This document shows, one piece after another, positions 43,546 through 49,658 of a stretch of 64,000 nt of DNA. Numbering within the stretch: the first letter of the stretch is position 1; each line of letters opens with the position of its first letter. A program made the translations under genes and the position numbers. Below the pieces are notes generated by a model. It had not been told where the DNA came from. It saw only the letters and a program-made list of their open reading frames with translations, and searched no databases. The DNA is from Rheinheimera nanhaiensis E407-8 (GTDB lineage: Bacteria > Pseudomonadota > Gammaproteobacteria > Enterobacterales > Alteromonadaceae), in the NCBI RefSeq assembly GCF_000296695.1, contig NZ_BAFK01000018.1:1-64000 (forward strand), given 5' to 3'.

Positions 43546-43585
43546 TGCGATAAGTGAAAATAATTCACTTGTCGCATTTTTTTTT
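43546..43585 (+). terminator. Rho-independent terminator after ilvA
   Basis: A 13-bp stem TGCGATAAGTGAA / TTCACTTGTCGCA (one G-T pair) with a 5-nt loop is followed by nine T. It ends the ilvLGMDA transcript. Confidence 0.92.
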
Positions 43586-43673
43586 ATCGTTTGTCAGTTC
43601 TGGAGCTTTTGCTCAAACTTACTCCTGCAGACCGACAGCGGCTGCCTGGATGGGAAATTGGGAGCGACACACT

Positions 43674-44198
43674 ATGAAAGCGAGATCAGTTAAATTAGGC
43701 AGTACTTTGGCGTTGATGCTAATGGCCTCAGGTTCATTTCTCGCATCAGCCAACACCAACGGCTATAAAATGGTCCTTATTGAAGATACCCCTGGCGTGG
43801 CAGCCCTGCAGGCTGGCCAGTTTGACCAGGGTATAACGGAAACACTAAACAGCAGCGTTGAAGTGGATAACTTCTCACGCCAGATGAGCCTGTGCGTAGG
43901 CTTTACTAAAAGCGCCCAGCTGGATAAAGCCGCCACGGCCTGCGACAGCGCGGTATCTGCCGCCCAGCAGCTGCACTTAGTCAGCAGCAGCGAAAAGCGT
44001 GAAATGCGCGCTTATGCCCTAACCAACCGCGGCGTACTGCGCCTGTTACAAAACAACAACCTGGCAGCCCTGGCTGATTTTAGCCGCGCCGCGGAATTAA
44101 ACCGCAGCGACGTTAATCTGCATAACCTGCAGCGGCTGGAGTTAGCATTAAACAAAGCCAACAACGGCTTAGACCTTGCCATGGTATCGGCTGACTAG
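43674..44198 (+). CDS. Secreted TPR-repeat protein
   Basis: 174 residues from ATG 43674 (GGGAG about 9 bases upstream); an earlier ATG at 43554 lies in the ilvA terminator and is unlikely. Signal peptide (SVKLGSTLALMLMASGSFLASA). At about residues 85-160 the chain forms TPR-like helices: AATACDSAVSAAQQLH and AYALTNRGVLRLLQNNNLAALADFSRAAELN. Probably a periplasmic binding adaptor; partner unknown. Confidence 0.75.
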   Translation: MKARSVKLGSTLALMLMASGSFLASANTNGYKMVLIEDTPGVAALQAGQFDQGITETLNSSVEVDNFSRQMSLCVGFTKSAQLDKAATACDSAVSAAQQLHLVSSSEKREMRAYALTNRGVLRLLQNNNLAALADFSRAAELNRSDVNLHNLQRLELALNKANNGLDLAMVSAD

Positions 44199-44315: not shown

Positions 44316-44348
44316 CAGCGTTATCTCCCCGGATAACGCTGTTTTTTT
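44316..44348. terminator. Terminator between the TPR gene and the exporter gene
   Basis: A 10-bp stem CAGCGTTATC / GATAACGCTG with a 6-nt loop, followed by seven T on the plus strand. It ends the TPR gene transcript. It adjoins the 3' end of the convergent exporter gene (stop at 44347) and may also act for it. Confidence 0.85.
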
Positions 44349-46428
44349 ATGCTCGGACAAATTGGGCTTTGTACGCCTCTGTTACATCCTGCAACTGGCC
44401 ATTATGCAGCTGCATAATGCGCTGTGCGTTAATAATGGTTTCTGGCCGGTGGGCAATAATAATACGCGTCATATTTAACTGTTTTATCGCCTGGTTGACA
44501 TAGTGCTCCAGCTGTACATCTAAATGGCTGGTGGCTTCGTCCATAAACAGAATTTTCGGCTTACGATACAGCGCTCGCGCTAATAATAAACGCTGCTTCT
44601 GGCCGCCAGACAGTGAACTGCCCATATCGCCGACCAGGGCGTTATAGCCCATTTGCATAGCGGCAATATCCTGGTGAATACCGGCCAGTTGCGCGCAGGC
44701 TATTACCTGCTGCATATCCATTTGGCTGTCAAAAAAGCTGATATTTTCCGCCAGCGTGCCGGACATTAACTGGTCGTCCTGCATTACCGCAGCAATTTGG
44801 CTGCGGTAATGGCGCAGCCCTAAATGGCGGATATCCACACCGTCTACTTCTACCTTGCCGCTCTCCGCTGGCAATAAGCCCAGCATAATTTTCATCAGGC
44901 TGGTTTTACCGGTGCCGGAAGGGCCAATAATCGCCACATTCTCACCGGCTTGTACTTCCAGATTTAAGCCGTTAAACAACAACGGGTCATTGTTGGCATA
45001 ACGAAAGCTAATATTGCTCAGGCTAAGCTGGCCGCTTAGCTCGCGGCCATCGCTGGCACTGCCTTCATCTTCTTTGTCGGTTAGGGCAATATCGGCCAGG
45101 CGATCTAAATGCAGTTTGGTCATTTTAACCTGCACCACCAGGCCAATCAGCGCCGACATCCGACCGGTGAACTGGCTTTTATATGCCATAAAGGCGAACA
45201 GCATGCCTACTGTCATACTGCCATCCATCACAGCATGCGCGGCTAAATACACTATCAAAATACCCTCAATGCCAAACAAAAGTTGGTTGGCCGTACTGGC
45301 ACTAATTCCCCACTTAGCCAACCGATACCCACTGTTTATCGCTTCAGCATGGCGGTTTTGCCAGATATTCAGGCGTTGGGTTTGCTGACCAAACAATTTG
45401 ATACTTTGCATGCCACGGATAGTTTCCATAAACACCGAGTCTTCCTTGGCGCCGGCGACAATGCTCTCTTCGGTTAACTGGCGCATCGGCCAATAAAATG
45501 CCCAGCGGATTAAGCCATACAACATAACCACTATCACTACCACCAGACTGAGCTGCGGGCTATACAGATACATCATGGCGAAGACAATGACCACCATAAT
45601 GCCATCTAAAATACCTTCAACCAAACTGTTAGTCAGCAGGGTTTGTACCGCTGACAGCGAGCCAAAACGCGAAGTGATATCGCCCATATGGCGCTTCTCA
45701 AAAAACGACATCGGCAAATGCAATAAATGACGAAACAGGTTGGTCACCATCTGCATGCTCATCATGATGCCAAGGTGCAGCGAAATCCAACTGCGCAGCA
45801 CGCTGACAACAACCTGAATTAGCATTACTAAGCTAAAGCCCAGTGCCAGCGCGGTAAGTAAAGGTTGGTCCTGACTGACAATAACCTCATCCACCACTAA
45901 CTGGGTGTAATAGGGTGAGGCTAACGCGAAAATTTGTAGCAATAACGACAGCGCAAATAACTTAATTAGCGCCGGCACCACGCCTTGCATTTTCGACCAA
46001 AAGGCAGTTAACCCAAGCTGAGCACGTTCATCTATTTTTTTAAATTCAATGCCAGGGGTAAGCTCCAGCGCTACGCCGGTAAAGGCTTTGTCTACCTCGG
46101 CAACGCTTAAGCGCCGTTCACCCATCGCCGGGTCAAGAATGGTAATGCCATTACGGTGTACTTTTTTCAGTACCACAAAGTGGTTCATTTCCCAGTGCAA
46201 TATGCAGGGTGTGCGCAGTTTTTTTAAGTCGTCTAAATCCAGCTTTAACGCCCGCGCTGTCATATTCAGCTGGTTGGCAAGCAGCATAAGCTGCTGCATA
46301 TTGGCGCCTTTTAATGACACGCTATAGCGGTTGCGTAGAGTAGTTAAGTCCAGCTTATGGCCATGATGATTGGCTACCATAGCGATACAGGCCAGGCCGC
46401 ACTCCGCAGTTTCGGATTGGTAGATCAC
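44347..46428 (-). CDS. Peptidase-containing ABC exporter for double-glycine peptides
   Basis: 693 residues from a GTG; no other usual start lies upstream before a stop. Domain order: C39 peptidase (about 1-125) with Gln4, Cys10 in AECGLAC, His83 in MNHFVVL and Asp99 in LDP, all catalytic residues present; six-helix transporter domain (about 150-430); ATPase with Walker A GPSGTGKTSL, signature LSGGQKQRLLLARAL and Walker B ILFMDEATSHLD. It cuts a leader after Gly-Gly and exports the peptide. The matching precursor, HlyD adaptor and small membrane protein lie just upstream in the same direction. Confidence 0.93.
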   Translation of the reverse strand: MIYQSETAECGLACIAMVANHHGHKLDLTTLRNRYSVSLKGANMQQLMLLANQLNMTARALKLDLDDLKKLRTPCILHWEMNHFVVLKKVHRNGITILDPAMGERRLSVAEVDKAFTGVALELTPGIEFKKIDERAQLGLTAFWSKMQGVVPALIKLFALSLLLQIFALASPYYTQLVVDEVIVSQDQPLLTALALGFSLVMLIQVVVSVLRSWISLHLGIMMSMQMVTNLFRHLLHLPMSFFEKRHMGDITSRFGSLSAVQTLLTNSLVEGILDGIMVVIVFAMMYLYSPQLSLVVVIVVMLYGLIRWAFYWPMRQLTEESIVAGAKEDSVFMETIRGMQSIKLFGQQTQRLNIWQNRHAEAINSGYRLAKWGISASTANQLLFGIEGILIVYLAAHAVMDGSMTVGMLFAFMAYKSQFTGRMSALIGLVVQVKMTKLHLDRLADIALTDKEDEGSASDGRELSGQLSLSNISFRYANNDPLLFNGLNLEVQAGENVAIIGPSGTGKTSLMKIMLGLLPAESGKVEVDGVDIRHLGLRHYRSQIAAVMQDDQLMSGTLAENISFFDSQMDMQQVIACAQLAGIHQDIAAMQMGYNALVGDMGSSLSGGQKQRLLLARALYRKPKILFMDEATSHLDVQLEHYVNQAIKQLNMTRIIIAHRPETIINAQRIMQLHNGQLQDVTEAYKAQFVRA

Positions 46429-46450
46429 GTCAACAGAGAACCTTAGTTTA

Positions 46451-46657
46451 CTAAGAATACGCTAAATAAATTAAATATGTAATAAGACAGGCAAGCGAAC
46501 CGAATATTACAGGGGCTAATGAAACAAATACATTTTGCCACTCACTTTGATATTTTGGCCATGCAGAAAACAATTTAACACCAAAAAGTCTCTTACCGAG
46601 CCAAGCGATTGTAAAATTTAAAATTATCAGTATGCTGAACCAAGCAATTGTTTCCAT
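46451..46657 (-). CDS. Small two-helix membrane protein, microcin immunity candidate
   Basis: 68 residues, AAGG about 7 bases before the ATG. Two membrane helices: residues 4-22 (IAWFSILIILNFTIAWLG) and 45-66 (VSLAPVIFGSLACLITYLIYL), joined by a polar, Trp- and Lys-containing loop (AWPKYQSEWQN). It sits between the precursor gene and the exporter gene in one operon, the usual place of a class II microcin immunity protein, and is AT-rich like such genes. The role is inferred from position and shape only. Confidence 0.65.
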   Translation of the reverse strand: METIAWFSILIILNFTIAWLGKRLFGVKLFSAWPKYQSEWQNVFVSLAPVIFGSLACLITYLIYLAYS

Positions 46658-46684
46658 AGTATGCCTTAATTTAGTTATATAGAA

Positions 46685-46705
46685 CGGCCCATTCTCTATG
46701 GGCCG
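46685..46705 (-). other. Hairpin between precursor and immunity-candidate genes
   Basis: Perfect 8-bp stem CGGCCCAT / ATGGGCCG with a 5-nt loop. On the minus strand it follows the precursor stop by about 20 bases and is followed by TTCTATATAA. It could partly stop transcription or protect the precursor mRNA, giving more precursor than exporter. Confidence 0.55.
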
Positions 46706-46724
46706 CTCAAAAATAGACCTAAAA

Positions 46725-47072
46725 TCAGTTTTGATTAATTATATATCCAGAGACACCTGCACCAACGTAACCAGCTGCAGTTCTCGCCGCTGACATTACT
46801 CCTGTCGCAGGGTTTAATGCACCTTGAATACCACCCGCGGCGGCACCAGCTAATATTACTGTAAGAGGGGTACCCTCATTGCTACCTCCTGAATGAGCCA
46901 TGATTGCTGCTGCCGCACCACCCAACGCACCAGCAACGCCTCCAACAATATTGCCAACTATAAAGCCATTTCCGCCACCGCCATCCATGTGACGTATAAT
47001 TTCCCAAGGCGCAGCAAGACCTGTAAATCCACCACTCACTTCTTCAACTTGCTCAAATGTTAACTCTTGCAT
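46725..47072 (-). CDS. Double-glycine microcin/bacteriocin precursor
   Basis: 115 residues with an excellent AAGGAGAG ribosome site. The first 15 residues (MQELTFEQVEEVSGG) are a textbook bacteriocin-type leader: acidic, Leu/Phe/Val at the recognition positions, ending Ser-Gly-Gly. Cleavage leaves 100 residues beginning FTGLAAPWE. The mature part is about half Gly and Ala, has no cysteine, and carries repeated glycine-zipper stretches (GNIVGGVAGALGGAAAAIMA and ILAGAAAGGIQGAL) suited to membrane insertion. It ends IINQN, without the Ser-rich tail of siderophore microcins. Flanked by its adaptor and exporter genes. Function as a toxin is inferred. Confidence 0.88.
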   Translation of the reverse strand: MQELTFEQVEEVSGGFTGLAAPWEIIRHMDGGGGNGFIVGNIVGGVAGALGGAAAAIMAHSGGSNEGTPLTVILAGAAAGGIQGALNPATGVMSAARTAAGYVGAGVSGYIINQN

Positions 47073-47124
47073 ACTATCTCTCCTTGAGACGCTTTTAAGT
47101 TTAAAGGTTTGCTCGTTACGAGCG

Positions 47125-48375
47125 TTATAACCGCCCTTTCAGGCTTAAAACCGGCTCGAACAACCAGGCTAACAGGCTGCGTTGTTCCAGCACGATATCT
47201 GCGCTTAACAGCATGCCCGATTGCAGCGGGACACTGTTGCCATAAGCGCGGATGTGTTGTGAAGCCAGGGCTACCTCTACCCGGTACACTGGCTCCTGTA
47301 CGGCGACAGGCATATCGACTTCTCCCGGAAGTACGATAGCCTGCGCCGTTTTTATTACTTCCCCTTCGTATAAGCCAAAACGCTGGTACGGAAAGGCGTC
47401 AAAACGTAAACGGGTATGCTGGCCCGGTTGCACAAAACCATAGGCGCGGGTAGGCACTAACAGTACGGCCTGCAATTCGGCGTTATCCGGCATGATGGTC
47501 AGCAGCGGTAAGCCCTGCTGTACGTTATTACCCACCTCTGCCACTAAGTTAGTTACCCGGCCGCTAATAGGTGCGGTGATCAGCAGTTCGCCCCGGGCGG
47601 CCAATTCGGTTTGCTGTTGTTGTAACCTGGCAATATCGCTGTCGAGCAGCGCCAGCTGTTGTTGCTGCTCGTTAGGAAGGCGCTGCAATTGGCCGCTCAG
47701 TTGTTCTATTTGCGCTTTTTGGTTTTGCTCACTGGCATTAAGCTCAGCCAGTTGCTGCTGAATATTCAGTACCAGTTCGTGTTGCTGCTGCAACTCGTTG
47801 GCAGAAATAGCGCCCTGCTGGCTTAGGCCGTTAAAGTTGTGATAGCGCTGCTGGTTTAGCTGCAGGCGCTGCTGCAACAGTTGCTGCTGGGCGTGAATAT
47901 CATCTAACAGGTTGCGGCTTAACGTTAGCCGGGCGTTGTACTCGGCTTGCTGTTGGTTAAACTGGCTGTGTAATTGCTGTTTACGCAGGTTTACCAGCTC
48001 AGTTTGCTGCAGTAAGCCCTGCAATAAGGTGCCGGTTAAGCTGTCACCGGCCGATAAATGCTCGGGTATGGCTACCAGCGCCAGCCTGTCGCCGGCCTGC
48101 ACTTGCTGGCCGTCATCGACATAGAGCTGCTGAATAACACCGGCACGGGACGACACTACTTTGGCCAGGCCAATATCAGGCTTTAAATAGCCGCTGACGG
48201 TTTCTTTGCGGTTGAATGATGTCAGGCTAAGAAAAGCAACAATAACAATCACCACCAACAATAATGTCACCGTCAGTACAGTACTGCTCAGCGGCTGGGC
48301 AATAATCACCTCACCGTCTAACCGTGCACTTTGTTGTTTAACCGCATTAGCGCGAAACAATCCTTGTCCTGCCAC
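47125..48375 (-). CDS. HlyD-family adaptor of the microcin exporter
   Basis: 416 residues. Short cytoplasmic N-terminus, one membrane helix (about 30-52, VLTVTLLLVVIVIVAFLSL), a lipoyl-like half-motif, a long Gln-rich coiled-coil hairpin (about 125-260), the second lipoyl half and a beta-barrel ending. This is the periplasmic adaptor joining the ABC exporter to a TolC-like channel (none encoded here). The GTG at 48375 is weakly supported; TTG at 48360, giving the typical LFRANAV start with AGGA upstream, is a good alternative. First gene of the minus-strand operon. Confidence 0.9.
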   Translation of the reverse strand: MAGQGLFRANAVKQQSARLDGEVIIAQPLSSTVLTVTLLLVVIVIVAFLSLTSFNRKETVSGYLKPDIGLAKVVSSRAGVIQQLYVDDGQQVQAGDRLALVAIPEHLSAGDSLTGTLLQGLLQQTELVNLRKQQLHSQFNQQQAEYNARLTLSRNLLDDIHAQQQLLQQRLQLNQQRYHNFNGLSQQGAISANELQQQHELVLNIQQQLAELNASEQNQKAQIEQLSGQLQRLPNEQQQQLALLDSDIARLQQQQTELAARGELLITAPISGRVTNLVAEVGNNVQQGLPLLTIMPDNAELQAVLLVPTRAYGFVQPGQHTRLRFDAFPYQRFGLYEGEVIKTAQAIVLPGEVDMPVAVQEPVYRVEVALASQHIRAYGNSVPLQSGMLLSADIVLEQRSLLAWLFEPVLSLKGRL

Positions 48376-48565: not shown

Positions 48566-48709
48566 ATGAACGACGCCCAACCAATTGCCGATTATTTAAC
48601 CAACTGGTTGGGCCAGCATGTCGTTTTGTGCTTTAACCAAACTGCTGCAATGCACCGGCGGCGATATCAGCCTGGTTATACACGCCGGTGTCCAACACCC
48701 AGCCGGTGA
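48566..48709 (+). pseudogene. Possible N-terminal gene remnant running into the mtnA 3' end
   Basis: A frame with a fair ribosome site (GCGGGACAAG) reads MNDAQPIADYLTNWLGQHVV and a few more protein-like residues, then at about 48633 runs antisense into mtnA and stops at 48707-48709. The first 25 residues look like a real protein start; the rest looks like an accidental frame. A 9-bp inverted repeat (GCCCAACCA / TGGTTGGGC, 48575-48613) overlaps it and could instead be a terminator for mtnA. Family unknown; may be spurious. Confidence 0.25.
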
Positions 48710-49658
48710 CCAGTGCTGCCGGGGTTACATCAAAGGCCGGGTTAAATACCGGTGCATCTTGTGGTGCCCAAATAGCCTGGCCAAAGCCGCCGCTGACACC
48801 GCGCACTTCATCGCCGTGGCGCTGCTCTATCGGTATCGCGCTGCCATCGGCGCAGGCTAAATCGACCGTAGTGTGTGGCGCCACCACATAAAACGGCACT
48901 TTGTGATAATGCGCCAGTACGGCTAAGGAGTAAGTGCCGACTTTATTGGCAAAATCGCCGTTGACGGCAATGCGATCTGAACCAACAAAGATACGGTCTA
49001 CCTGGCCACGCGCCATCAGCATGGCGGCCATATTGTCGCAGATCAGCTGATACGGAATGCCCAGTTGCTGGCATTCCCAGGCCGTTAAACGGCCGCCTTG
49101 CAACAATGGCCGGGTTTCATCTACCCACAGGCGGATGTTTTTGCCTTGCTGATGCGCCAGGTTAATTACCCCCAGCGCTGTACCGACGCCGGCGGTGGCC
49201 AAACCGCCGGTATTGCAATGGGTAAGTAACTGCTCGCCCTGTTGCACCAGCGCCGCGCCGTGCTCGGCCATGCGCTGGCACAGCGCGACATCTTCGGCAA
49301 ACAGCTGCTCAGCACAGGCAATGGCAGCGGCTTTAAAATCCGGCTGTTGCAGTGCGGCAATCATGCTATCGAGGTTATTCATCAGGTTTACGGCAGTGGG
49401 CCGGGCGGCGCGCAGCACTTCGGCATCCAGCAGTAGCTGCTGGCGGCTGTCGCCGACACTGGCCCGATACGCCAGCAATAAACAGGCGCCAATACCAATG
49501 GCTGGCGCACCGCGCAGCTGCAGCGCTTTGATCATGGCCACCATCTCGGCCACCGTGCGACACGCCAGCCAGCGCTGCTGCTGTGGCAGTAAGGTTTGGT
49601 CCAGCACATACAGCAGGCCCTGCGCGGTTTTCAGGCTAAGGGCGGTAAGGTTTTTCAT
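48633..49658 (-). CDS. mtnA: S-methyl-5-thioribose-1-phosphate isomerase
   Basis: Converts methylthioribose-1-phosphate to methylthioribulose-1-phosphate in methionine salvage. 341 residues of the eIF2B-like family: [15 protein letters not shown], catalytic Cys in [20 protein letters not shown], catalytic Asp in [22 protein letters not shown] and the C-terminal APHTTVDLA. Divergent from mtnK, sharing a short promoter region with a MetJ-like site. Confidence 0.94.

Follow-up and report, generated by a model that had tools for sequence, protein, structure and literature searches.

A class II microcin-like locus of Rheinheimera nanhaiensis as a probable cassette-exchange platform with a fixed leader and swapped cargo

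Class II microcins are small exported peptides whose leader is cleaved after a double glycine (GG), and which exit via an exporter, an HlyD-type adaptor and TolC. Microcin V is a CvaAB-type exported example with such anatomy. Mosaic clusters, for microcins M and H47, exist in E. coli. PMC9746304 counts 10 verified class II microcins as of 2022 and gives a precursor size of ~75-120 amino acids (aa). New examples are hard to find because the core peptides share no sequence. For a different group of toxins, those of contact-dependent growth inhibition (CDI) and Rhs systems, recombination in a conserved upstream segment has been proposed (PMC3150448). Here, we describe an operon in 64,000 nucleotides (nt) of Rheinheimera nanhaiensis E407-8 (contig NZ_BAFK01000018.1, positions 1 to 64,000; hereafter the window). 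The operon encodes an HlyD adaptor, a GG-leader precursor, a small membrane protein and a C39 peptidase ATP-binding cassette (ABC) exporter. We propose, with a probability of about 0.66, that this class II microcin-like locus is a cassette-exchange platform; export machinery and leader are fixed, and peptide and immunity gene are swapped. In the sequences compared, the case is built from gene content, a fixed leader and the abrupt boundary behind it, remnant tails of hlyD, cassettes common to operons with diverged flanks, and a shared chromosomal site. Note that a fixed leader with exchangeable cargo is invisible from one window alone. Compared genomes have G-numbers, where G000 is the window's own, and DNA regions taken from them have L-numbers.

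A sequence-only reading of the window had recognised a four-gene operon, and this is borne out. All four open reading frames (ORFs) are intact, on the minus strand. The hlyD gene (47125..48375) has a GTG start and encodes a 416-aa periplasmic adaptor, matching HlyD_3 (8e-16) and HlyD_D23 (8e-15). The precursor gene (46725..47072) encodes 115 aa: a 15-residue leader, MQELTFEQVEEVSGG (47028..47072), then a Gly/Ala-rich mature cargo of 100 aa (46725..47027, stop included). Next is the 68-aa membrane protein, a candidate immunity (46451..46657). The 693-aa exporter (44347..46428), also with a GTG start, contains Peptidase_C39 (PF03412, 3e-37), ABC_membrane (1e-47) and ABC_tran (7e-32) domains. Its catalytic residues Cys10, His83 and Asp99 are intact, as originally noticed, and Gln4 is also present; Walker A is at 502 and LSGGQ at 606. 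TolC lies outside the cluster, with one TolC-family protein over cut-off (384 bits), and four weaker, elsewhere in the genome. The gene content therefore supports the class II anatomy first suggested. As in CvaAB-type systems there is an HlyD-type adaptor, C39 exporter, GG leader and TolC, and the precursor is within the described size range (PMC9746304). A small membrane protein also occupies the immunity position.

The precursor and the 68-aa protein, for which database searches had been advised, are both below every Pfam and NCBIfam cut-off. Similarly, the precursor has no match in 72,556 plasmid records (tblastn, E up to 1). A search of the window's own genome (E 1) reported no second copy of precursor or leader. 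For the exporter, PADLOC matches were confined to ABC/ATPase cross-matches; those for the adaptor were weak. Structure prediction for the precursor, made without an alignment, was uninformative (predicted local distance difference test score 49; predicted template modelling score, pTM, 0.31). The system had also been called AT-richer than its flanks. This is true of cargo and immunity together (guanine plus cytosine content 0.424; 0.333 for the 68-aa gene) and mildly so of the exporter (0.489), but not of hlyD (0.529, against a window mean of 0.525). The cassette is AT-richer than hlyD, and than the exporter, in 13 of 13 operons.

To compare leaders, a script gathered 27 ORFs starting MQEL[T/N]F from the regions examined; 24 belong to the genus and 3 to other genera of the family. 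Regions L112-L126 (L126 being from G022) were covered for leader ORFs only. In ungapped 15-nt bins, leader DNA identity is 0.91, 0.91 and 0.73. After the GG it is 0.31-0.32 in each of the five following bins. Upstream of the start codon, where the spacer has small indels, values are 0.40, 0.63 and 0.81 per bin. The GG leader, as the sequence-only reading proposed, is thus genuine: it recurs near letter-for-letter in relatives, mostly beside C39 exporters, and this is more than chance. The cargo behaves differently. The 27 leaders precede 19 mature-peptide clusters (BLASTP, E 1e-3) and the window's peptide is a singleton. A weak relative, the G023 peptide, is 39% identical (E 5e-4), with the leader inside the matched span. 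Cargo lengths are 24 to 111 residues, without a common feature, and some genus precursors, for example of 39-64 aa, are below the class II size range.

Could this be an ordinary chromosomal class II microcin operon, with core peptides diverging fast and no exchange as a unit? The leader would then be kept by the exporter's need to recognise it. PMC9746304 states as a rule for microcins that exporters are conserved and cores variable. Furthermore, many genomes of the family have a C39 exporter (102 of 196, at E 1e-150 or better), and the window itself has one cassette only. Yet identity is 0.31 directly past the GG while leader DNA is kept, synonymous sites included. Two further observations, both found in relatives, also argue against rapid divergence alone. 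These are extra cassettes headed by hlyD tails, and a cargo segment near-unchanged between operons with diverged hlyD genes.

The tails came from a comparison of every hlyD gene, 14 in all, with the region in which it lies. Nine hlyD 3' tails, of 80-510 nt, head extra cassettes in 4 of the 14 operons (G028, 243, 157, 86 and 87 nt; G013, 240, 205 and 80 nt; G001, 510 nt; G017, 113 nt). Every tail ends no more than 6 nt from the end of the hlyD coding part, and a leader ORF follows each of the nine after 55-62 nt. Tails are before the exporter in G001, G017 and one case in G028; three in G028 and three in G013 are after it. G028 also holds the first 84 nt of the exporter gene, then an internal exporter piece. 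Extra modules headed by main-gene fragments are hence a property of relatives, and are absent from the window's own genome.

The segment is shared by G013 and G028, each a single contig here. Their 965 base pairs (bp) of leader and cargo, which start within the spacer and stop 270 nt into the exporter gene, have two differences. In the flanks, intact hlyD is 77% identical over 1387 nt aligned, and the exporter 73-85% over the next 360 nt. Other cassettes change position. A G028 cassette named NALWRF, directly behind intact hlyD, is 95% identical over 1.5 kb to a G013 cassette downstream of the exporter, and a further downstream copy in G028 is 97.5% identical to that of G013. Likewise, the G010 main cargo and its membrane ORF correspond to a downstream G013 cassette (81% over 1165 nt). 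A cargo that fills the main slot in one genome can thus be a downstream one elsewhere. Given these observations, we consider rapid divergence without exchange unlikely. As a separate observation, the NALWRF/NFLWRF cassettes (L095/L096, from G028 and G013) have an ORF of 88 aa whose product matches the end of signal peptidase S26 (PF10502, 8.6e-10); this ORF may be a broken gene or a cassette partner.

Homologous recombination, as proposed here, would act in conserved arms on either side of the cassette. As a measure, we used identical codons among amino-acid-identical degenerate codons, in 13 operons (78 pairs); the G004 operon was left out because it is split over two contigs. The last ~80 hlyD codons (47125..47364, minus strand), our candidate left arm, score 0.738, compared to 0.48 for the rest of the gene, and the best of 269 non-overlapping codon windows scores 0.517. 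The end of hlyD exceeds the rest in 78 of 78 pairs, and tails of this arm, varying in length, are the remnants in four other genomes described above. The candidate right arm, the first ~30 exporter codons (46339..46428, minus strand), scores 0.677 against 0.51. It ranks first of 664 codon windows and is above the rest in 75 of 78 pairs. In a linear test, the hlyD arm ranks 7 of 349, and all six higher windows overlap it. In circular-shift tests, 39 of 427 shifts equal or exceed the observed hlyD value, and 6 of 692 that of the exporter. Neighbouring genes mtnK (bins 0.44-0.63, 27 sequences) and mtnA (0.42-0.60, 22 sequences) have no end effect, in genome sets that differ from the operon set.

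Between hlyD and leader is a conserved spacer (47073..47124, minus strand), containing a small hairpin (47111-47123) and ribosome site AAGGAGAG. Mean column identity is 80% in an alignment of 23 spacers, hand-picked as showing the spacer, with other leader ORFs left out. Of these 23, 15 are distinct, and in every one of the 15 the hlyD stop is followed by a stem of 4-6 bp whose letters vary. Stems of at least 5 bp occur in 12 of the 15; shuffles gave 0.5 on average and at most 4. Note that the stems are out of register in the MAFFT alignment and so were scored per sequence. The hairpin could tune expression between adaptor and precursor.

The operon has a chromosomal site that is shared within the genus. 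Exporter searches of 31 genus genomes (E 1e-60 or better) found matches in 22, other exporter types included. We defined the window's operon type as hlyD, an ORF with the MQEL leader, and exporter. By reading of the search results, 13 of the 31 genomes carry 14 such operons (G000, G001 with two, G004, G009, G010, G011, G013, G017, G019, G023, G025, G028 and G029). The exporter of G017 is cut by a contig end, and a G020 exporter fragment, on a 3.3-kb contig, is outside this count. In the window, the operon is flanked by mtnA (48633..49658, minus strand; IF-2B family, PF01008) and tprX (43554..44198, plus strand; a weak tetratricopeptide repeat match). Seven genomes have the operon beside mtnK, and mtnA where the genome has it (G000, G001, G004, G010, G017, G023 and G025). 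On the other side, tprX is present in five (G000, G004, G010, G023 and, after ~3 kb of other genes, G025). The G001 operon is ~2 kb from mtnA, and tprX was not found within the 7.7 kb examined beyond the exporter; in G017 the contig ends on the tprX side. Distances from hlyD to mtnK are 3.7 kb in G028 and 4.7 kb in G019. For G009, G011 and G029, operon and mtnA are on different contigs. G013 lacks an mtnA match, and mtnK is absent from the stretch examined there.

Operon-free genomes were searched for traces at this site, using nine operon regions as queries against 12 mtnA-tprX intervals (blastn, E 1e-3). Eleven intervals, of 173-1238 bp between facing mtnA and tprX genes, have no operon trace (G003, G006, G007, G012, G014, G015, G016, G021, G024, G026 and G027). 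The 2663-bp interval of G030 has one 35-nt reverse-strand match. G008 gave no DNA match in this blastn search. G018, with mtnA 95% identical to that of the window, has two cassette heads with leader-like ORFs at the site, and no exporter there. The sequence-only reading had suggested transfer into a site between housekeeping genes. This is too simple: the cassette of peptide and immunity moves, but the operon is retained beside mtnK/mtnA in seven genomes. We rejected recent whole-operon transfer as the main story for the same reason. Since the neighbourhood is constant in these seven, only the cassette is clearly mobile.

The genome of the window encodes two further C39-domain proteins. A second C39 exporter of this genome (G000:C41:87010-89076, L108) is 64% identical to that of the operon and is associated with a longer leader, MKNQDINKDKVLNLQQLEQVSGG. 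The locus has a peptide with repeated WSTMS, and hlyD is ~3 kb downstream. The same exporter type occurs in G014, G016 and G021. Another exporter region, in G003 (L104:5023-5475), has three consecutive short GG ORFs with alike cargos, starting FICGGLC, FVCGGLC and LICGGLC.

Our attention then falls on the candidate immunity proteins. Ten cassette proteins were scanned against Pfam and three were over cut-off. The cassette shared by G013 and the main slot of G010 encodes an Rce1/CPBP-like membrane protein (PF02517, 2e-15; the G013 protein was scanned). The Rce1/CPBP family includes bacteriocin self-immunity proteins. G008 (beside mtnA) and G025 (downstream of the exporter) encode homologs of the window's 68-aa protein, in neither case alongside a precursor of this type. 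G008 has no exporter match in the 31-genome search. Family-wide, 7 of 246 genomes match the 68-aa protein at E 0.01; leaving G000 aside, the one convincing match is in G008 (E 6.6e-12). The G025 genome is absent from these matches and presumably outside the sample of 246. The 68-aa protein had been described as two-helix. Simple hydropathy does give each of the two homologs a pair of hydrophobic stretches, but the protein itself, modelled from its single sequence, is one long helix (pTM 0.38), on which we do not rely. Separately, a G017 cassette (L100:7132-7560) pairs a 34-aa mature peptide (TGCTYDGKSYSDGSRKEQEG...) with a 72-aa DUF1496 protein (1.6e-6) that has a signal-peptide-like start. 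By eye, this protein resembles the adjoining peptide, and perhaps confers immunity by mimicry.

A second possibility is that the exported peptides are signals, or other secreted factors, and that the neighbouring membrane proteins are not immunities. The peptides vary widely in length without a common feature, and candidate immunities mostly lack a family match. However, extremely diverse cargos linked to membrane proteins, including an Rce1/CPBP-like one, better fit exchange of toxin and immunity. Moreover, immunity-like homologs stand without a peptide, and signalling would need receptor and signal to be kept. We regard a signalling or other non-killing role as distinctly improbable. Site-specific or transposon-like movement at the hairpin after hlyD, rather than homologous recombination, is highly improbable: the stem with changing letters recurs in all distinct spacers chosen, but remnant left ends fall at many hlyD points (80 to 510 nt from its end), the segment common to G013 and G028 stops within the exporter gene, and no recombinase gene is among the ORFs listed, although no search was aimed at recombinases.

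Several observations weigh against cassette exchange as we propose it. First, tprX, outside the cassette, has synonymous identity of 0.87-0.98 over the first 80 codons, falling to 0.60-0.72 beyond them (11 sequences), so local synonymous constraint of another cause exists at this site. (The true tprX start codon may be internal to this near-invariant beginning.) Arm identity could, therefore, partly reflect a promoter or RNA element. Second, identity of the hlyD tail tracks that of the hlyD body (r 0.76). Third, 10 of the 14 operons, including that of the window, have no hlyD tail, and the window's genome has a single cassette. Hence, exchange is inferred from relatives, and arrival of the window's own cassette by this route is an extension of it. 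Fourth, later exporter stretches of G013 and G028 are 92-100% identical; the exporter gene is thus mosaic, and exchange there is not confined to the cassette. Finally, besides the lack of a family match for the 68-aa protein, several cassettes have no clear membrane immunity ORF (e.g. that of G029 and the FGVPG cassette of G013).

On balance, we favour cassette exchange and envisage the following. The C39 exporter and HlyD, with TolC encoded elsewhere, would recognise one near-invariant 15-residue leader. The leader would bring the precursor to the C39 domain, for cutting after the GG, and the peptide would leave via exporter, HlyD and TolC. The segment from the GG to the exporter start, comprising mature peptide and immunity gene, would be replaced as a unit. 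Most likely, this involves homologous recombination, with the hlyD end, spacer and leader as one arm and the exporter start as the other. Because the former make one conserved block, and the latter another, a foreign piece with both could replace cargo and immunity together. Displaced or incoming cassettes could stay as extras, headed by truncated hlyD tails. Since they keep a ribosome site and leader, such extras may be expressed, and their peptides may leave through the same machinery. The window's 100-aa peptide, a candidate killing peptide, probably acts on the envelope of related bacteria. Judged from sequence, antibacterial activity of the cargo is likely, and the 68-aa protein likely protects the producer.

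More generally, we lean towards the view that Gram-negative microcin loci can be cassette-exchange systems. A universal leader joined to the adaptor gene 3' end, and the exporter gene 5' end, would be the arms, with displaced pairs kept as exportable orphans. An incoming peptide and immunity pair would, with such arms, be an exported weapon at once. If so, a single leader sequence gives access, within one genus, to an open-ended library of microcin families. One exporter reading one tag would be a ready platform for testing many cargos. Here, the leader DNA is a near-invariant hook exposing unrelated cargos. The locus also opens to direct test the question of whether recombination swaps small exported peptide weapons together with their immunities, as units, in the way proposed for CDI/Rhs toxins.

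How does this compare with known systems? Unlike described class II microcins, the window's cargo and 68-aa protein belong to no matched family and the precursor to no plasmid record; the site is chromosomal and shared within the genus, cassettes are probably swapped, and all exporters found on plasmid records are <60% identical to the window's. CDI/Rhs orphan modules, as described in PMC3150448, are similarly arrays of unrelated toxin and immunity pairs, shared between strains and headed by main-gene leftovers of varying length. There, orphans mostly lack start signals (PMC3150448), whereas extra cassettes here keep start codon, ribosome site and leader, and occur both before and after the exporter gene. 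The exported products are small leader peptides, using a C39 transporter, rather than large surface toxins. A large CdiA/Rhs carrier is absent, the carrier being a 15-aa leader and C39 exporter. Hence, the locus is alike in organisation and not a member. The pneumococcal blp locus also has GG bacteriocins, with variable content at one locus and recombination proposed as diversifier (PMC4860687). It differs in being Gram-positive, quorum-regulated and having several leader types; adaptor-gene tails are not mentioned in the available text of that source. The gonococcal nap island, which is Gram-negative, has several GG bacteriocin-like peptides and an immunity-like protein (PMC11798529). The peptides are different, with a role in autolysis, and cassette exchange is not mentioned in the part of that account available. 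Among the open-access papers listed in our literature searches, with subscription papers and preprints outside our scope, we found no description of such a cassette arrangement in microcins. The locus would combine microcin-type export with a CDI/Rhs-type cassette organisation.

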